Assembly: GCA_903894755.1 (NCBI GenBank)
Contig: CAITRH010000593.1
Span: 1-46,592 of the forward strand
DNA: 46,592 nt
Direction of reading: 5' to 3'
Origin: an uncultured delta proteobacterium
Lineage (GTDB): Bacteria > Myxococcota_A > Polyangia > Polyangiales > Polyangiaceae
Shown here: positions 729-10,678 of the stretch, in pieces
How positions within the stretch are numbered: position 1 is the stretch's first letter
Layout: each line of letters begins with the position of its first letter
Notes under the pieces: generated by a model
The model's database searches: none
What the model was told of the DNA's origin: nothing
What the model saw: only the letters and a program-made list of their open reading frames with translations
Translations under genes and position numbers: made by a program

Positions 729-2535
729 GGAACACCCTCAGCGCGATAGCAAGGACCGCCGCCACAAGGAGCAAGACAGCAGCGTAGGTCCAGAAAGGCA
801 CAGCCGCAGTGGGCTTTTTTGCTGGCACAGTGGGCTTTTGTGCGGGTGCAGTCGGCGCAAGCGCTGTTGCCGCAGGTGCGACTAGGACCGCAATCGGGGC
901 GACGGCGGGATGCACGGAATCGCCCGCCACGGCTTCAGCAGGTAGCGCTGCCTCGATACTTCGGGCTGTTTCGCGCGCCTCTGCAGCGCGACGATCCTCG
1001 GCCTCACGCTCGGCCTGAATCCGCTTGGCCGCCTCGCGCATCGCGTCGTCGCCTCGCTGGCTGGCCTCACGGAGCATGCGCCGCTGCTCGGGCCCCATGA
1101 TGGAGGTCATGTCGGACTCGTCTTCAATGTCATCCATAGGTGGTGGCCTTGGGGTGTGAGGCTCTGAGGGGGCGGCCTTCGGAGGCGACGGGAGCGATTG
1201 ACTGTGATCCCAGGACAAACTGTCGAGCGAACGGGCCGCTTGCGCAGTCAGTGGGGGGGGCGGGGATGCGGGACCTCGAGACGAGGGGGACGAGCCCGCT
1301 GCAATGGGACTCGCATGGAGCATGGCCATCGCCGTTCGCTCGGCCCAATCCAAGCCATCCACGGCCGCTTCCACCACCTCCGGCACATGGTCGCCAAAAG
1401 CCGACGCAAGAGCGCCAACGAAGTCGGGATAAATCTCCGCGCACGCGTCCGAGCACGACGCCGCCGCGACGAGCGCATCGCGAACCCGGGGACCCGATGG
1501 ACGCGCCAGGGCAAGACGCGCGAGATGCACCCGGATCTCGCGCAAGTTGGACGGGTCCAAGGAGGCCGCCCGTGTCAACGCGTCGAGAGCGCGAACATCG
1601 TCGGAAGCCACCGCAGCCCCCTCGCGAAGCACCCGCGCCCTGTCGAGCGGAGCAAGACGTTCGTACTGAGCGTCGGCATTCCCACGGTGCGCCGTAGCCC
1701 GTGCCGCTTCTCCCCCGTCTGCTGCCGCCGCGGCAAGGCGTTCGTAGACCATGGCAAGCCGTGTGGCATCGGTCAGCGCCTTGACCACGTCGTCGGCTTC
1801 GTCCCACTCGCCCATGCGGGCAAGCGCCTCGGCACGAAGCACAGGATCTCCAATTTTGTGGGCCAGCAGGACCCCTTTGGTCGCGATCACAAGGGGCACG
1901 AGCACACGGTCACGATGGGGGGCGGCCGACAGCTTTTGAACCAGACCCCGCTTGATGAGGTCGTGCGGATCACTCTTGGCCAACGCCTCGAGAGCGGTCG
2001 CAAGAGCGGCCTCGCGCGTTTCACCGGAGGCAAGCGCCTCGGCCTCCACGAGCGCCTCGGAGAGCGCGGCAGCCGCCACCAACGCCCGCACCCGCGCCAC
2101 GCCTGCCGGCAGACGATGCGCCAGACGCGCAGCCTCGCCTCGATCGACCTGCCCAAGCGCGTCGACCACCACGGCAACAAGGACCCCACGGTCGGTCAGC
2201 GACGGCTCCGAGAAGGCTTCGCGTTCGGCCCGCTCGAGCAGAGGACGGGCCGCGTCTCGTCCCCTTCCCTTCGCGGCGGCGGCCAAGGTCCGCACACGCA
2301 ACACGCGGTCTCGTCCCCCCACCGCCTCGTCGACACGTGCATCATGACCAAGGGCGGCTAGGCCGGCTTTGGAAAGACGCTCCATTCCACGCGTCACCAG
2401 GGCCACGAGTAGCCCTAGCCGCGCGACGCGCACCAGATCGGCCTCGGACGACGCTACGCCCTGCAAAAGCTCGCCACGCACCGAATCCAGCGACGATCGC
2501 TGCGCGCGTTCGGCCAGCGCCACACCGTTGTCCAT
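721..2535 (-). CDS. hypothetical Ala-rich repeat protein with C-terminal membrane anchor
   Basis: A protein of 604 residues with no family I can name. Residues 1 to about 400 are alanine/leucine/arginine-rich helical sequence with a regular spacing that suggests HEAT- or TPR-like helical repeats. Residues about 400-480 are proline/serine-rich and probably disordered. There follows a charged helical stretch rich in E, R and A (about 490-525), an Ala/Pro-rich linker, and a single C-terminal hydrophobic segment of about 20 residues ending in RVFLK. This architecture suggests a tail-anchored cytoplasmic scaffold. The ATG at 2535 is preferred over a TTG at 2559. It is divergent from the HIT hydrolase gene and converges on the acyl-carrier gene. 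Function unknown. Confidence 0.7.
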   Translation of the reverse strand: MDNGVALAERAQRSSLDSVRGELLQGVASSEADLVRVARLGLLVALVTRGMERLSKAGLAALGHDARVDEAVGGRDRVLRVRTLAAAAKGRGRDAARPLLERAEREAFSEPSLTDRGVLVAVVVDALGQVDRGEAARLAHRLPAGVARVRALVAAAALSEALVEAEALASGETREAALATALEALAKSDPHDLIKRGLVQKLSAAPHRDRVLVPLVIATKGVLLAHKIGDPVLRAEALARMGEWDEADDVVKALTDATRLAMVYERLAAAAADGGEAARATAHRGNADAQYERLAPLDRARVLREGAAVASDDVRALDALTRAASLDPSNLREIRVHLARLALARPSGPRVRDALVAAASCSDACAEIYPDFVGALASAFGDHVPEVVEAAVDGLDWAERTAMAMLHASPIAAGSSPSSRGPASPPPPLTAQAARSLDSLSWDHSQSLPSPPKAAPSEPHTPRPPPMDDIEDESDMTSIMGPEQRRMLREASQRGDDAMREAAKRIQAEREAEDRRAAEARETARSIEAALPAEAVAGDSVHPAVAPIAVLVAPAATALAPTAPAQKPTVPAKKPTAAVPFWTYAAVLLLVAAVLAIALRVFLK

Positions 2536-2646
2536 CACGTCAAGGGCTAGCGGTTCCAAGGAGCGCAGGGTGCCGGAAAGCGATCGATGAGGTCAAGGGG
2601 AACGAGCAAGCACGACGAGCGAGCCTTCGTATTATCGTCCCGGGCA

Positions 2647-3162
2647 ATGACCCCTCCGCTCTGGGCCCCCTGGCGCATGGAATACATTCTGGGTGAACGC
2701 CAAACCGAGTGCATCTTCTGCGACTTCGCGTCCCTTCACAACCACGCGATGCGCGACAAGCTCGTGCTGCTCGTGCAGCCTCACGCGATCGTCGCACTCA
2801 ACCGCTACCCCTTCACCACCTGTCACCTCTTGGTCTCCCCGCGACGGCACGTCTCCGATCTGACCGAGCTCGACCCGGTCGAATACACGGCCCTCATGGA
2901 GCTGCTGCGCCTCTCGGTCATCCGCCTGCGCAACGCCACCGGCGCCCAAGGGATGAACGTCGGGTTCAACCTCGGCAAAGCCGCCGGAGCCGGCATCGCC
3001 GACCACACCCATGGACACCTGGTCCCACGCTGGCTAGGCGACACGAACTTCATGCCGGTGGTGGCCGATGTCCGCGTCATGCCCGAGTACCTAGACGACG
3101 CGTGGAGCAAGCTTCACCCATTTTTTGCCGACCTCGCCGGCGAGCGAGCCCCCGCACCATGA
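2647..3162 (+). CDS. HIT family hydrolase/phosphorylase
   Basis: A 171-residue histidine-triad protein. The signature HTHGHLVPRW carries the triad at H120, H122 and H124, and the N-terminal LWAPWRMEYI plus ECIFCDF are typical of the Ap4A phosphorylase-like/FHIT-like branch. Family members cleave or phosphorolyse dinucleoside polyphosphates or nucleotide phosphoramidates through a covalent nucleotidyl-histidine. CIFC could form part of a zinc site. ATG 2647 is chosen because homology starts immediately after it; an ATG 60 bases upstream is in frame. The stop codon overlaps the start of the AI-2E family gene in an ATGA arrangement, so the two are probably translationally coupled. The exact substrate cannot be read from sequence. 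Confidence 0.9.
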   Translation: MTPPLWAPWRMEYILGERQTECIFCDFASLHNHAMRDKLVLLVQPHAIVALNRYPFTTCHLLVSPRRHVSDLTELDPVEYTALMELLRLSVIRLRNATGAQGMNVGFNLGKAAGAGIADHTHGHLVPRWLGDTNFMPVVADVRVMPEYLDDAWSKLHPFFADLAGERAPAP

Positions 3163-4475
3163 CCATGTCAGCATCGGCGGCGGCGTCGGCAACGCACAGA
3201 GGCCGGGTGGTGTTTCTCAGCGTAAGCGCCGCCGTCGCCGTGGCCGTCGTGGTGGTCGCACGCGAGGTGCTCCTCCCGTTCATTTTTGCCCTGGTCATTG
3301 CCTACGTGTTCACGCCGGCGGTCGTTTGGGCGGAGCGACGAAGGGTTCCACGGGTCGCTGCGATCCTCCTTGTCTACGCAGTGCTTCTGGGAAGCCTCGG
3401 GACCTTCGCGCACTTCGCGCTTCCCCGCATCGCCGTGGAGCTGAAGACGCTCCGGTACGAGCTTCCCGAGCTTGCACGAACGGCAAAAGAGCGATGGGTG
3501 CCGGCCCTCGCCCGGGAGCTTCGAAGCCTCGGTCTCGCCCCGTCGTCGCCCCAAGGAGAACCTCACGCGTCCGAGGTCATCGAGCCAGACCCGCGTCCTG
3601 CTCCCCCACGTCCAGCGCTCATCGCCCGCCCCCTACCCGACGGCGCGGTAGCCATCGAGGTCGGGCAAGGAGTGGCCCTGACCGCAACGAAAACGGGGTA
3701 CGTGCTCGAGGCCGTTCGAGTGCGCGAGGAGACCTTCGACCCGAACCGCATGGTTGCCGAAGCCATGGGCAAGGGGTTTCACTATGCCCAAGAGAACACC
3801 TTCGAGATCTACCGAGTGGCCCGAGATGTCGTGGCGGGCATCACGCGGACCGTGTTCGTATTCTTCATTACGCTGATGCTGGCGGCCTACGTGATGATGA
3901 CCCGAGAACGCATTCTCGAGTTCTTCGAGTCCTTGGTCCGTCCATCGAGCCGTCCAGGATTTCACGGCCTGCTTGCCCGCATCGATCGGGGACTGTCTGG
4001 AGTGGTACGAGGACAGCTTCTTATTTGCCTGGTCAACGGCATTCTAAGCGCGATTGGTTTCGCCATGGTGGGGCTCAAGTACTGGCCGGTGCTCGCGCTG
4101 GTGGCCGCGGTCCTCTCGCTGATCCCGATTTTTGGTTCCATCGTGAGCAGTGTCCCCGCGGTCGCCATCGGCCTCACCCAGGGGATCGGAACCGCGACCT
4201 TCGTGTTCGTCTGGATCGTGGGGATCCACCAGCTCGAAGCGAACTTTCTAAACCCCAAGATCATGGGGGACGCCGCAAAAATCCATCCGTTTCTGGTCGT
4301 GTTTTCGCTTCTCGTCGGGGAGCATTACTTCCATGCGGCTGGCGCGCTGCTCGCGGTGCCATGCTTGTCCATCCTTCTCAACGTGTTTCTGCACTTCCGC
4401 GAGATCGTGCATCGCAACGACGTAGAGCTTTCAAAAGAGCCGCTGAGGCCCTCGTTCATGCCCCCAGCTCGGTAA
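3159..4475 (+). CDS. AI-2E family transporter (permease-like integral membrane protein)
   Basis: A 438-residue membrane protein of the AI-2E/PerM/TqsA family. Two N-terminal hydrophobic segments (about residues 15-75) precede a long hydrophilic insert of about 150 residues that is proline-rich in the middle. C-terminal transmembrane segments follow, including the glycine-rich stretch RGQLLICLVNGILSAIGF and an IPIFGSIVSSVPAVAIGL stretch characteristic of the family. Members have been linked to signal or small-molecule export and Na+/H+ antiport, so the substrate is open. The start at 3159 overlaps the HIT stop codon by four bases; an open frame reaching back to 2709 is only the shadow of the HIT gene. 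The central insert makes it longer than the usual 340-370 residues. Confidence 0.9.
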   Translation: MTMSASAAASATHRGRVVFLSVSAAVAVAVVVVAREVLLPFIFALVIAYVFTPAVVWAERRRVPRVAAILLVYAVLLGSLGTFAHFALPRIAVELKTLRYELPELARTAKERWVPALARELRSLGLAPSSPQGEPHASEVIEPDPRPAPPRPALIARPLPDGAVAIEVGQGVALTATKTGYVLEAVRVREETFDPNRMVAEAMGKGFHYAQENTFEIYRVARDVVAGITRTVFVFFITLMLAAYVMMTRERILEFFESLVRPSSRPGFHGLLARIDRGLSGVVRGQLLICLVNGILSAIGFAMVGLKYWPVLALVAAVLSLIPIFGSIVSSVPAVAIGLTQGIGTATFVFVWIVGIHQLEANFLNPKIMGDAAKIHPFLVVFSLLVGEHYFHAAGALLAVPCLSILLNVFLHFREIVHRNDVELSKEPLRPSFMPPAR

Positions 4476-4481
4476 GACCGC

Positions 4482-5534
4482 TCACAACTTGTTACGGCAC
4501 GAAGCCGTGGCCGCCCCGCCACCCGCGTCCATCTCCTTAGACACCACGCATTCCTGGGAGACGGTGCAGACCGCCACCTCCGACCACTTCCCGCTCACCT
4601 CGCACTTCTGAACCGTGCTACTGGAGGCGCACTGGGTGGTGTTGGGAACACAGAACTCCATACAGTCTGCGACACGGTCCTTGACATAGCAGTATTCCTG
4701 GGGACTGCATGTCTTCTTTGCATTGCTGCCACCATCCACACACTGGTAGGGCACGCCCGACGAAGAACACGACTCCTCGCCGTCGGTGCACTTGAAGGAA
4801 AGACAGACCGCCTGTCCGCCGGGCAGCACGATGCAGCCTTCGTCTGACGCGCAGGTATCTTTGAGCTGCATCACACCGCTTGTGCAAATGTGGGGGTTGC
4901 CCTTGGCGCTGATGGAGGGGCAGTACTCGAGTCCCTCCTGGCAGGGAATCTGCCGGCACGCGGCTTCTTCACGGGTTCCCCCATCAGCAGACGACGCCAA
5001 CAGGATCAGACAGATCTGCGTCTCCGCGCAAGCCTGTTTCACCTCCCAGCGACCCGTCTGGGTGCACCAGTAGGCATCCGCTCCGTTCTTTGGCGTCGAG
5101 CCTTGGGAGACGAGCTTGCACGTCTCGGTGTCACGGGCAGGGTCACAGGCAACCCCCGTCGGCACACAGACCGCTTTGCCGTCCTCGAGGTTCACAGTAC
5201 ACGATTCCGTGCTGGCGCACGCCGCACCCACCACCCAGGTGCCGGACACACACTGGCGCGCCTGCTTGCGGTCCTCGGTGCACCCCTCGGTGCTCCCCCT
5301 GCAGGCGCAGACCGCATGTCCCGCCCGCGCCACACACGACTCGGTGCGGACGTCGCATACCTGGCTGACATCCCACGTCGCGTTTTTGCACAGAAATGTC
5401 GCGGTGCCGGCCGCGTTGCAGATCCCCTCGCCATCCGTGCACATGGGCAAGTTGCCAGTGCCACACGACGCGACTCCCGGGAGGAACGCCCCGAGCCACA
5501 CCGCCCCAAGCCATCCAAACACGCCTTTTCTCAT
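4482..5534 (-). CDS. Cys-rich lipoprotein, myxobacterial type
   Basis: A 350-residue secreted protein. The N-terminus has a signal peptide ending in a lipobox (PGVASCGTG), predicting lipid attachment at the cysteine. The rest consists of about six short cysteine-rich modules with recurring C-x-D-G/C-x-W spacing, likely disulfide-bonded. No catalytic motif is visible. Such proteins are common on myxobacterial cell surfaces, but their function is unknown. The ATG at 5534 is preferred over a GTG at 5543 because GGTGG lies at ribosome-binding distance upstream. It is divergent from the next, also Cys-rich, lipoprotein gene with about 150 bases between the two starts. Confidence 0.8.
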   Translation of the reverse strand: MRKGVFGWLGAVWLGAFLPGVASCGTGNLPMCTDGEGICNAAGTATFLCKNATWDVSQVCDVRTESCVARAGHAVCACRGSTEGCTEDRKQARQCVSGTWVVGAACASTESCTVNLEDGKAVCVPTGVACDPARDTETCKLVSQGSTPKNGADAYWCTQTGRWEVKQACAETQICLILLASSADGGTREEAACRQIPCQEGLEYCPSISAKGNPHICTSGVMQLKDTCASDEGCIVLPGGQAVCLSFKCTDGEESCSSSGVPYQCVDGGSNAKKTCSPQEYCYVKDRVADCMEFCVPNTTQCASSSTVQKCEVSGKWSEVAVCTVSQECVVSKEMDAGGGAATASCRNKL

Positions 5535-5683: not shown

Positions 5684-6577
5684 ATGCGAACCTTCTCCCT
5701 CACCCTCCTCTGTTGTCTCTTGTCGTGCCATCGGTTCCCCATCCGCGGCGACGACCCCCCTCGCCCAAACGACGCGGCTTCCGCCGTCCTCGCCTCGCCT
5801 CCGCCTCCCCCCTCCACAGGACCAAGCCGCGCCACCATCGCCTGCGGCTCCGCCCGCTGCAACGTGGGCGACGACTTCTGCTACGTTCAGGAACGGACCA
5901 ACACCGCTCGTTGTCTCCCCCTTGCCGACGAAACCCTCTACGGGAACATGGACGACCTCATCTTGCACTGCGACGACACCACCGACTGCTCCGAAGGCCA
6001 ACTCTGCTGCGGTGGAAGTTTCACGGGAACCGGTCCCACCTACCAGCGCTGCTCCAAAAACCGCTGCCCCTCCTACGAAGCATGTGTCCCAGGTGCTCTC
6101 TGTTCTGCCGGCCTCACGTGCGCTCCTAGTCGTGCCGATCCCCGCCGCGGACAGTGTGTCCCAGAAAAGTCCGCAACCTCCTGCGGCCCTAAACGCTGTG
6201 CCGCATCCCAGCCCGCCTGCTGCTGGAACCGCGACCTCGACGCCGGCCGTTGCACCGCTCCCTCCACCCCTGACGGCGGCCCGGTCTGCTTCGACAACGC
6301 CGACGAGCTCCGACAATGCGCTAACCGCTCCGATTGCGGCGGTTACTTCTGCTGTCTCGAGCTCCTTGGACGTACCTCTTGTTCCTCTAGCTGCCCCGGA
6401 GCTTCCATCGGCGTCGCCTGCACCACCAAGTCGGACTGCCCAAGTGTAGGCCCAGGCCCAGGGGGAATCCCCCAGCGCTACTCCCGCTGCCTCGTCGGCC
6501 CCCATGGATGGGGCGTCTGCGACGGGGACCAATGCGGCAGCGAAGGAAAATGGCGTCCTTGTAGCGAGCTCCAGTAA
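5684..6577 (+). CDS. Cys-rich lipoprotein
   Basis: A 297-residue protein starting MRTFSLTLLCCLLSCHRF, a short signal peptide with a lipobox ending at C15. A proline-rich linker follows, then a series of cysteine-rich modules containing C-x-x-x-DC and CC pairs (for example EGQLCCGG, QPACCWNR, GYFCCLEL), resembling WAP/EGF-like disulfide knots without a clear match. Probably anchored on the outer membrane or cell surface. The ATG at 5684 is preferred to one at 5576, since the signal peptide begins exactly there. Its stop lies only 3 bases from the convergent seryl-tRNA synthetase stop. Divergent pairing with the other Cys-rich lipoprotein suggests related roles. Function unknown. Confidence 0.75.
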   Translation: MRTFSLTLLCCLLSCHRFPIRGDDPPRPNDAASAVLASPPPPPSTGPSRATIACGSARCNVGDDFCYVQERTNTARCLPLADETLYGNMDDLILHCDDTTDCSEGQLCCGGSFTGTGPTYQRCSKNRCPSYEACVPGALCSAGLTCAPSRADPRRGQCVPEKSATSCGPKRCAASQPACCWNRDLDAGRCTAPSTPDGGPVCFDNADELRQCANRSDCGGYFCCLELLGRTSCSSSCPGASIGVACTTKSDCPSVGPGPGGIPQRYSRCLVGPHGWGVCDGDQCGSEGKWRPCSELQ

Positions 6578-7920: not shown

Positions 7921-8262
7921 ATGCACGAGGTCGGGATCGTTCAATCGACGCTGGCAATGGCCGAACGTCACGCTCGCAACGCTGGGGGGAGCGCTATTTC
8001 GAGCTTGCTCCTGCGCGTGGGCGACATGACCGGGGTGGTCCCCGAAGCGATCGAACACGCCTTTGACGTGCTCAAGATCGGAACCCTCGCAGAAAACGCT
8101 AGCCTCGTCATCGAACGCGTCGGCGGGATCGGCTGGTGCGAGGGATGCTCCCTTGAGTTTTCCGCGGACGGGTGGATCGCCATCTGCCCGCGCTGCGCGG
8201 TTCCCACCGGGGACCTGCGGAGCGGACTCGAGCTCGAACTCGTAAGCCTTGAGGTGTCGTAA
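7921..8262 (+). CDS. hypA: hydrogenase nickel incorporation protein HypA
   Basis: A 113-residue nickel metallochaperone. It begins MHEVGIVQS, with the MHE nickel-binding N-terminus, and carries the zinc-finger cysteines C73/C76 (WCEGC) and C89/C92 (ICPRC). HypA hands Ni2+ together with HypB to the large subunit of [NiFe] hydrogenases. It lies two bases upstream of hypB in an obvious operon. No hydrogenase structural gene or hypCDEF is in the window, so the client enzyme must be encoded elsewhere. Confidence 0.95.
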   Translation: MHEVGIVQSTLAMAERHARNAGGSAISSLLLRVGDMTGVVPEAIEHAFDVLKIGTLAENASLVIERVGGIGWCEGCSLEFSADGWIAICPRCAVPTGDLRSGLELELVSLEVS

Positions 8263-8264
8263 CC

Positions 8265-8978
8265 ATGTGTATTGAATGCGGATGCGGGCAGCAGCCCCAC
8301 GAGAAGCACGATCATCCCCATCGGGTCGTGTCGGTCCACGAGTCGATTTTCGCCGACAACGACCGACGAGCGGAACGTAACCGAGGCTACTTCCGAGCCC
8401 ATGGGCTCTTCGTGGTCAATCTCGTGTCGTCGCCGGGAGCAGGCAAGACCGCGCTCCTCGAGAAGACCTTGGGACTCCTGCCGCTTCGCTCCGGGGTCGT
8501 GGTCGGAGATCTGGAAACGGACCTCGACGCCATCCGCCTTCGCAAAACCGGAACGTCGGTCGTGCAGGTGGCCACGGGGACTCTGTGCCACCTCGACGCG
8601 GCCATGGTGGCCCGCGCGGTAGGGACGCTCAACGTAAAGACGCTCGCCGTGCTCTTCATTGAAAACGTTGGCAATCTGGTCTGCCCCGCCGCGTTCGACC
8701 TCGGGGAGGATCTGCGGGTCACGCTGCTGTCGGTTCCAGAGGGCGAGGACAAGCCCCTCAAATATCCGCCGCTGTTCCGGTCTTCCAACTGGGTCGTCGT
8801 GACCAAGATCGACCTAGAGGAAGCGTGCGGATTCGATCGGGAGGCATGCCTGGGACACCTGGGACGGGTCGCACCAAAGGCGCGGATCCTCGAGCTGTCG
8901 TCGAAAACGGGGGCGGGGATGGACCAATGGTGCGACGAACTGGTTCGAGCCTACGAGAGCCGTCCCAAGGGACTGTGA
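8265..8978 (+). CDS. hypB: hydrogenase nickel incorporation GTPase HypB
   Basis: A 237-residue SIMIBI-class GTPase. The N-terminal MCIECGCG motif (C2, C5, C7) is the high-affinity nickel site of many HypB proteins, followed by a short His-containing linker (HEKHDHPHR). The P-loop SSPGAGKT lies at 55-62; ENVGNLVCPAAFDLGE carries the G-domain metal-site cysteine, and VVVTKIDL is the base-specificity motif. HypB uses GTP hydrolysis to deliver nickel to the hydrogenase large subunit with HypA. The start lies two bases after the hypA stop. The stop is just before the inverted repeat of the element that follows. Confidence 0.96.
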   Translation: MCIECGCGQQPHEKHDHPHRVVSVHESIFADNDRRAERNRGYFRAHGLFVVNLVSSPGAGKTALLEKTLGLLPLRSGVVVGDLETDLDAIRLRKTGTSVVQVATGTLCHLDAAMVARAVGTLNVKTLAVLFIENVGNLVCPAAFDLGEDLRVTLLSVPEGEDKPLKYPPLFRSSNWVVVTKIDLEEACGFDREACLGHLGRVAPKARILELSSKTGAGMDQWCDELVRAYESRPKGL

Positions 8979-8991
8979 GCGGGTCTACCTA

Positions 8992-9009
8992 AACCAAACC
9001 TACTTTGAG
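8992..9009 (+). repeat. left terminal inverted repeat
   Basis: AACCAAACCTACTTTGAG, the exact reverse complement of 9687-9704. With a 3-base offset the similarity continues inward (GAACC-CAG). Confidence 0.85.
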
Positions 9010-9026
9010 ATGAGAACCGCAGGTCC

Positions 9027-9060
9027 GATTCGCCTTCGGGGCTGCCAATCAACGCATTGG
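9027..9060 (+). repeat. internal direct repeat, left copy
   Basis: Begins GATTCGCCTTCGGGGCTGCC and continues ATCAACGC. It matches 9627-9661 in the same orientation with a 2-base indel and two or three substitutions. The GCC-TTC-GGGGC core can form a small GC hairpin. Confidence 0.8.
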
Positions 9061-9626
9061 CGCCTCATCGCCCGACACCCTCTACAGCCATGGGACGCGA
9101 AGTCCCTCACCTTTCCTGCCGCCCGACAGCCACCGATCGGCCAGCCCCCATCCCAGTTCGGAAGGACGCCGCGTGTTGCTCCATCTGGTCGCCACTGTTC
9201 CTGCCGACAGACTCGCCGCGTCGCCTTCTTCCGTTGCCGGTTTCCGAGCCCAACTGCCTGCGTCGCGTCCGCCCCGGGGCTGTTCCACTCCCGAACCGAC
9301 TCGGTCCATTGCGGGCTCCATGGCCGGTTTCGCCAAACAGGTCCGGGCAGCTGTGGTGCACCACGACACTTTTGGCCGCGGAGCGAAGGCGGCCCGTCAA
9401 GGTGGGCGTTCCGATGGCCAAACCGCCATCGGGCGCGCAAACGTACGGTCGTTCCGTGTCCCGACGGGCTACGGGAGCTGCGCACCTAGCCTGTCCGGCC
9501 GTTTCCGCCCCGCGGGTGCTTTTTTTCCGCAACGGTCCGCTAAGTTTCGGGGTCTCGGGCGCATTGAGACGGGTGCATTGAGACAAGCGCCACCTGCGAC
9601 CCAGGGTTCCCATCCTGGGCTGATTT

Positions 9627-9661
9627 GATTCGCCCCTTCGGGGCTGCCGATCAACGCGTGG
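9627..9661 (+). repeat. internal direct repeat, right copy
   Basis: Begins GATTCGCCCCTTCGGGGCTG and matches 9027-9060. The GCCCC-TTC-GGGGC hairpin is perfect in this copy. Confidence 0.8.
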
Positions 9662-9686
9662 GTCCGTAGGGAAAAACTGGGGTTCC

Positions 9687-9704
9687 CTCAAAGTAGGTTT
9701 GGTT
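9687..9704 (-). repeat. right terminal inverted repeat
   Basis: CTCAAAGTAGGTTTGGTT, the exact reverse complement of 8992-9009. Its last base is the first base of the stop codon of the FrzS-like gene (read on the minus strand). Confidence 0.85.
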
Positions 9705-10678
9705 CAGGAAACCTCATTCAGATGCTGGAGCGCTGACATAAGGGCCTCCCGTGCCCTGGCGAGCATCGTCTGGTCGGTCTCCCACTTTGCCAACGCTCGA
9801 TCGGCCCGGGTCTTCTCCGACGCGCATCGAGCCTCGGCCTCGAGCTGCGCCTGACGTATCCCCTCGAGCTCCCCTTCGCGCGCCACAAGCTCCGCACGCA
9901 CCAAGGCGAGAGTAACTTCGAGCTCCGCACGCTTGCCTCGCGCCTCTGCCAGCTCCCCCGCACGTCTATCGAGCTCCGCAAGCGCCTCTGCCAACAACGC
10001 CTCGAGCTCCGTACGTGTCCCTCCAAGCGCCTCGACGCTATCGCCATCAATTCGCTCGGTCGCATCAGAGCTTGGGGAGGTCTCCGTCGACGCAGCAGGA
10101 ACCTCCGCCTCGGTGCCGTCCGTCAGCCGTCCAAAGGCCGCGTCCGCAAACGCGTCGATGTCGGCATCCACTGGACGAGGCTCGGAGGGTAAAGGAGGCA
10201 GCTCGCCCCATTGAGTCCCGTCGTCCTCGACCAGATCGTCGTCGTCGAGAGGCTCGATGTCATCTTCGATGTGCACCCCTTCGTCGCCACTCGATTCCGG
10301 CCCCGCCAGAGGGACCAAGTTGCGAATACGCAGCAGGAGCTCGCCAAACGCGATGGGCTTGTGGACATAATCCTCGGCGTGGGTTCGGAGCTTGCGATGC
10401 TGTTCGAAGGTCTCATCACTCGAGTCGCTCGACATCAGGATCAAGGGGACGTCCTTGAGCGACAGGTCTTTTTTGAGCTTGTTGCAGACCGAGAACCCGT
10501 TCATGCGAGGAAGCTCGATGGACAATAAAATGAGGTCTGGACGATCGGCGGCAGCCTGCTTGAGGCCAACGTTGCCGTCGTCGACAACCACGATGGTGCA
10601 GTCTAGGTTCGACAGCTCGTGTCGGAGCTCGCTAGCGAAGGCCGCGTCGTTTTCGAACACGAGGACTTTGGTGGTCAT
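9704..10678 (-). CDS. FrzS-like pseudo-receiver/coiled-coil protein
   Basis: A 324-residue protein with an N-terminal response-regulator receiver fold (about 1-122), an acidic linker (about 123-205) and a C-terminal Ala/Glu/Arg-rich coiled coil (about 205-320). The segment HRKLRTHAEDYVHKPI closely resembles Myxococcus FrzS, a polarity protein for type IV pilus motility. The usual phospho-acceptor aspartate is replaced by Ser53 (ILLSIELPRMNGF) and the acidic pocket reads FEND, so it is probably not phosphorylated. K107 is kept. There is no DNA-binding domain. It lies 37 bases downstream of hisIE, in a minus-strand run that starts with the epimerase. A role in motility or polarity is inferred from the FrzS resemblance only. 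Confidence 0.8.
   Translation of the reverse strand: MTTKVLVFENDAAFASELRHELSNLDCTIVVVDDGNVGLKQAAADRPDLILLSIELPRMNGFSVCNKLKKDLSLKDVPLILMSSDSSDETFEQHRKLRTHAEDYVHKPIAFGELLLRIRNLVPLAGPESSGDEGVHIEDDIEPLDDDDLVEDDGTQWGELPPLPSEPRPVDADIDAFADAAFGRLTDGTEAEVPAASTETSPSSDATERIDGDSVEALGGTRTELEALLAEALAELDRRAGELAEARGKRAELEVTLALVRAELVAREGELEGIRQAQLEAEARCASEKTRADRALAKWETDQTMLARAREALMSALQHLNEVS

Follow-up and report, generated by a model that had tools for sequence, protein, structure and literature searches.

Acido-Lenti-1 hairpin pairs inside a TA-duplicating MITE family of a Polyangiaceae genome and their probable origin as ends of class 3 Y1 transposase units

The intergenic stretch and its mosaic layout

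The window, that is, the whole stretch of 46,592 nucleotides analysed here, belongs to an uncultured delta proteobacterium of the Polyangiaceae and corresponds to contig C593 of its assembly. Between two convergent genes, a hypB-like gene preceded by a hypA-like one and a response-regulator gene, lies a stretch of 713 bp bounded by inverted repeats (Table 1). An earlier note had placed this stretch exactly between two stop codons, which is roughly the case; strictly, the stop codon of the hypB-like gene (8976-8978) lies 13 bases upstream of the left repeat, and the right repeat shares its final base with the response-regulator stop codon. The perfect 18-bp inverted repeats that the note described are present and extend to 22 bp at 95% identity (8988-9009 and 9687-9708). 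At up to three mismatches, two inverted-repeat matches were observed against a mean of 0.04 in shuffled windows. The inner direct repeat was also recovered, at 9033-9060 and 9635-9662, with 28 nt at 89% identity when ungapped and about 34-35 nt when one indel is allowed.

Table 1. Features of the 713-bp stretch and of the genes next to it
Feature	Position	Strand	Basis or remark
hypA-like gene (flank)	7921..8262	+	Pfam HypA, 6.9e-26
hypB-like (CobW/HypB/UreG) gene, left neighbour	8265..8978	+	Pfam cobW, 1e-17
TA, presumed target duplication, left of the terminal repeat	8990..8991	.	sequence; family flank profile
Left terminal inverted repeat TIR1, disturbed beyond 18 bp	8992..9009	+	canonical 26 bp AACCAAACCYAYYTTGARAACCGCAG
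Subterminal part of TIR1, AGAACCGCAGGTCCGA..., containing a small duplication	9010..9032	+	
Truncated Acido-Lenti-1: part of the second hairpin and GCTGCCAATCAACGC tail	9033..9060	+	
Filler body	9055..9527	+	4 genome copies
TIR2 left end	9530..9552	+	AACGGCCCGCTAAGTyrCGGGG
Full Acido-Lenti-1 (RF01687), two hairpins	9600..9645	+	47.2 bits, gathering 37
Remnant of the central part of an Acido-Lenti-1 inverted pair, GCTGCCGATCAACGC ... GGGAAAAACTGGGGTTCCC	9640..9686	+	same order in C748; coverage profile
Right terminal inverted repeat TIR1	9687..9704	-	
Response-regulator gene, right neighbour	9704..10678	-	Pfam Response_reg, 3.5e-17

According to the earlier note, neither protein coding nor a terminator explains the nested repeat order. 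Long frames within 9000-9690 have no Pfam match and no codon-position bias, which rules out their coding potential. The position between convergent genes and a T7 run after a short stem on the + strand (9504-9526) might suggest a bidirectional terminator, or a structured spacer kept for that role, but the terminator scan stayed at chance (2 found, 1.0 expected), there was no fold excess and every module except the filler is a dispersed repeat; we regard this explanation as highly improbable. Sigma-70-like promoters did not exceed chance level in the element, where none was found.

Judged from its sequence, the 713-bp copy has been rearranged into a mosaic that combines four or more types of repeat, running from left to right as TA, TIR1, subterminal stretch, truncated motif, filler, TIR2 left end, full motif, part of a pair centre and TIR1. 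The nested repeat order described earlier therefore stands as regards the repeats themselves and fails as a single design: from this layout, the nested direct repeat corresponds to one broken and one complete copy of the Acido-Lenti-1 motif. The pair that they form is itself broken, being in direct orientation and with one copy truncated. In addition, the right flank of the copy reads TG inward instead of TA, with one base changed, and its target duplication is thus imperfect: TA stands only at the left.

The filler of about 470 bp occurs four times in the genome, in the window and in contigs C201, C5 and C423, and these copies are 81-89% identical over 471 columns with one indel. Such a likeness may point to a decayed gene or an unrecognised non-coding RNA carried as cargo. 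Against this, the substitutions that distinguish the four copies are distributed evenly over the three codon positions, the filler folds as RNA no better than shuffles, it has no Rfam or Pfam match and it is absent from the genomes of 77 relatives; a cargo of this kind seems unlikely to us. Folding of the right part of the 713-bp stretch as RNA was also considered and rejected, as it was not above shuffles. In C5 and C423 (loci L042 and L043) the filler is followed downstream by the same short gene (MSARTLTYRTGLL...); the C201 copy is locus L041.

A family of TA-duplicating TIR1 elements

The 713-bp stretch matches its own genome at 53 places, four times with its middle (the body) and about fifty times with its right-hand 100 bp. 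The earlier note had named the lack of any second copy as the result that would speak against a repeat; many copies were found. As expected, a large number of them lie at contig ends, since repeats break an assembly, and some elements are cut because this assembly consists of 778 contigs, in which the repeats were sampled by stretches. The 18-mer of TIR1 was found at 82 places of the genome with up to two mismatches and its reversed control at none, and a 28-mer comprising TIR1 and the flanking TA was found at 223 + 263 (486) places in the same genome and had no match among 283 further genomes from the phylum.

The canonical end reads (C)TA-AACCAAACCYAYYTTGARAACCGCAG, and a typical element of 264-315 bp is made of TIR1, a motif in forward orientation, a centre, a motif in reverse and TIR1 again. 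These elements are gene-free, and the window copy contains no transposase gene according to Pfam and the codon-position test. TIR1 also bounds elements with other interiors (loci L090, L094, L095 and L064, in contigs C322, C647, C449 and C73), which indicates that the frame is independent of Acido-Lenti-1. The alternative interior at these four loci is a palindrome, GACCTCACCCC ... CCCCTCCCCATCGATGGGGAGGGG, without the motif. A second terminal repeat, TIR2 (AACGGCCCGCTAAGTyrCGGGGC), also frames Acido-Lenti-1 pairs, as seen at L053 (C158), L045 (C748), L028 (C28) and in the window at 9530-9552.

The bases that precede 59 distinct TIR1 ends are T in 93% at position -2 and A in 92% at position -1, and CTA is present in 43 of the 59. 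An empty site is available in C640 and C155, where the end of another insertion sequence reads GAGCTACTAGG; in C549 the filled site reads GAGCTACTA-element-TAGG, with a TIR1 element inside CTAG and TA on both sides. The TIR1 family inserts at TA, preferably within CTAG, and duplicates TA, this being a result at the level of the family that was obtained from paralogous sites (C549 versus C640 and C155). Elements of the IS630 family duplicate TA (PMC2170065), and the reference list of that paper includes Tenzen and Ohtsubo (1991), whose title states a CTAG preference of IS630. The suggestion of a MITE-like element or dispersed intergenic repeat, made from the window alone, was borne out: the outer repeats are the TIRs of a TA-duplicating MITE family.

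The frame would have been moved by a DDE transposase of the IS630/Tc1-mariner type. A DDE_3 search of the genome gave fragments only and no intact parent transposase of TIR1, and the sole DDE_3 piece adjacent to TIR1 is a fragment in C742. The IS630 copies in C640, C155 and C549 were considered as parents and rejected, as their ends differ. They represent a different IS630-family element (L076, L077 and L078 for C640, C549 and C155), which has CTCGCGGCGGAAGTCCTTGGACACTC at one end and CTAG at the junction.

The Acido-Lenti-1 motif and class 3 Y1 transposases

The complete motif copy of the window scores 47.2 bits with the Rfam model RF01687, whose gathering cut-off is 37. The same genome contains 144 RF01687 matches, often as inverted pairs inside elements; 89 unique copies have full upstream sequence, of which 51 are framed by TIR1, 7 by TIR2 and 31 by neither. 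Bare pairs without TIR1 are found in C275 and C637. None of 58 relatives has a match above the cut-off, and 6 other genomes out of 188 in the phylum do. G129, a genome of the phylum that is not the one of the window, has at least 28 matches, many at an identical 48.2 bits and several at contig ends, and its copies are an independent recent expansion. In locus L098 (Planctomycetales, 5908-6228), four copies, all in one orientation, repeat in tandem about every 89-97 bp.

The stems of the motif show compensation, with 26 doubly changed cells against 7.1 +- 2.3 in shuffles, and the GT[AG]G foot of canonical REPs is absent from the motif alignment. Acido-Lenti-1 was listed as a likely RNA that is not cis-regulatory (Weinberg et al., PMC2864571) and Rfam assigns RF01687 the type 'Gene; sRNA'. 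A 2026 paper suggested a role for RF01687 in the regulation of Tannerella forsythia protease genes (PMC13298647). In the open-access literature we found no link between Acido-Lenti-1 and a transposase; recent papers that name the motif treat it as a non-coding RNA of unknown function.

A scan of genomes with the motif core gave 80 loci in Planctomycetota, Acidobacteriota, Verrucomicrobiota, Lentisphaerota, Bacteroidota and others. The genome of the window holds one piece of a Y1 transposase gene (C267, PF01797), truncated at the N-terminus, and homologs of it occur at four of the 80 loci, in two cases about 100 bp from the motif. Locus L113 carries eight motif copies on 8 kb, several of them adjoining a Y1 gene. 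The C267 remnant has the signatures NHVH and Y----Q, with DHVH in some homologs. NHVH-type proteins with Y----Q are the rare class 3 Y1 proteins, present mainly in Planctomycetes, Acidobacteria and Proteobacteria, and their genes are flanked by 'atypical secondary structures', about 600 of them in Solibacter (PMC6006769).

At E<=1e-15, a class 3 homolog was found in 39 of 50 genomes with the motif core, all of them selected for holding the motif, and no match was obtained in the remaining 11. At E<=1e-20 there was none in 77 relatives of the window genome, which itself has one truncated class 3 gene and is the sole member of its relatives' group with many motif copies. Around the 30 best transposase loci, a motif above the gathering score lies within 200 bp of the gene in 12, and by hand count 16 motif copies fall in the near 12 kb versus 6 in the remaining ~67 kb. 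This 30-locus count is fairer than the Poisson P for motif-gene proximity, which is inflated since adjacency was the criterion by which its 8 genomes were chosen. No motif was present at three more distant Y1 loci from relatives. The usual arrangement is a reversed motif, the gene and a forward motif, at 45-60 bp from the gene.

The strongest piece of evidence comes from the boundary of paralogous units, which were compared in two genomes. L272 and L273 align over 559-1183, with motifs at 560-605 and 1138-1183; L285 and L287 align over 466-1150, and their motif-like ends are more divergent. Homology runs from motif edge to motif edge with none beyond, and therefore the motif is the end of a mobile unit.

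RF01687 is probably a DNA hairpin and not an RNA gene, as far as these comparisons of sequences can tell. Acido-Lenti-1 could instead be a true small RNA, or a cis RNA element, for which transposable elements are only carriers, and the Rfam type, the listing as a likely RNA and the two-hairpin structure with strong covariation speak in its favour. Nevertheless, the covariation of the stems fits a single-stranded DNA hairpin as well as an RNA and is equally expected of HUH-bound DNA, inverted copies of the motif make up the outermost part of class 3 Y1 units at either end, genomes carry anything between a few and at least 144 copies, which lie in varied contexts, and the window element has no sigma-70-like promoter. 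We thus give the small RNA a slim chance, and a secondary RNA role of Acido-Lenti-1 may exist. The earlier option of a structured non-coding RNA is accordingly right about the catalogue match, while the entry itself is doubtful, the motif being the ends of class 3 Y1 units.

A hairpin pair carried by another repeat

As a whole, the 713-bp stretch is very likely a decayed IS630-type TIR1 MITE that carries a captured pair of class 3 Y1 terminal hairpins. A class 3 Y1 transposase (HUH, IS200/REP-type) would recognise the two-hairpin motif as folded single-stranded DNA, and in this lineage an inverted pair of these ends may have been captured by the IS630-type TIR1 frame. Movement of that frame by a DDE transposase would then have spread the pair to many places, and the window copy may later have decayed through nested insertions and deletions. 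For the entire Acido-Lenti-1 family, we find it likely that the motif is a terminal single-stranded DNA hairpin of class 3 Y1 units, and not an RNA, which is present here in a hybrid with a DDE-type MITE in hundreds of copies.

It can also be proposed that the pairs of this genome moved only as REPINs by a Y1 transposase, with TIR1 as part of a long hairpin arm. The bare pairs of C275 and C637, the 31 copies out of 89 that neither TIR frames and the class 3 Y1 remnant of the genome agree with it. On the other hand, TIR1 frames elements without Acido-Lenti-1, the distinct TIR2 frames other pairs, and an exact TA duplication is the mark of a DDE transposase and not of Y1, and we hold movement as REPINs only to be improbable. 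With capture by the TIR1 frame as the preferred reading, the pairs may still have had a mobility of their own. Their orientation in this genome, with the first hairpins outward, is opposite to that around the transposase genes, and together with the 31 of 89 copies without TIR this suggests that Acido-Lenti-1 pairs were also moved or left behind by themselves.

The TIR1 elements resemble MITEs of the IS630/Tc1-mariner type in being short and gene-free, with TIRs, TA duplication in CTAG and hundreds of copies, and differ from them in an interior that carries REP-like hairpin pairs. With REPINs and their RAYTs (PMC3116915) they share a dispersed inverted hairpin pair with a spacer and the link with a Y1 gene, which is flanked by the same hairpin in other genomes and is truncated in this one. 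The differences are a unit of two hairpins that lacks the GT[AG]G foot, a TA-duplicating frame around most pairs here and transposase units with paralogous copies in other genomes. In the absence of that foot, and with class 3 structures described as 'atypical' (PMC6006769), the pairs are REPIN-like in their working and not canonical REPINs.

The agreement with class 3 TnpA_Y1 (PMC6006769) comprises the NHVH-type and Y----Q signatures, the occurrence in Planctomycetes and Acidobacteria and the high copy number of the structures. That paper does not mention Acido-Lenti-1, and we infer that its atypical structures would correspond to this motif; it calls the arrangement more REPtron- than IS-like, whereas the units compared here end at the motif, as in an IS. 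With the published RF01687 (PMC2864571) the likeness lies in the score above the 37-bit cut-off, and the difference in its filing as an sRNA versus the evidence for a hairpin of mobile DNA.

RF01687 serves as a non-coding RNA label in genome annotation. If the motif is the end of a mobile element, inferences made from that label, as for example in Tannerella forsythia, need revision, and, if this is true, class 3 Y1 transposases, a widespread and barely studied system, gain a defined substrate. In this sense, covariation searches can take DNA hairpins for RNA candidates. One repeat system can also hitch-hike inside another, as a REPIN inside a MITE. Finally, the contig with the Y1 remnant (L040, C267) has three closely similar genes in a row at 161-991, 2245-3114 and 3961-4953 (MDRSSSPPAKLHAPGP...PESRFEVMHG...), which lie next to the truncated Y1 transposase gene and to frames that resemble protein kinases.
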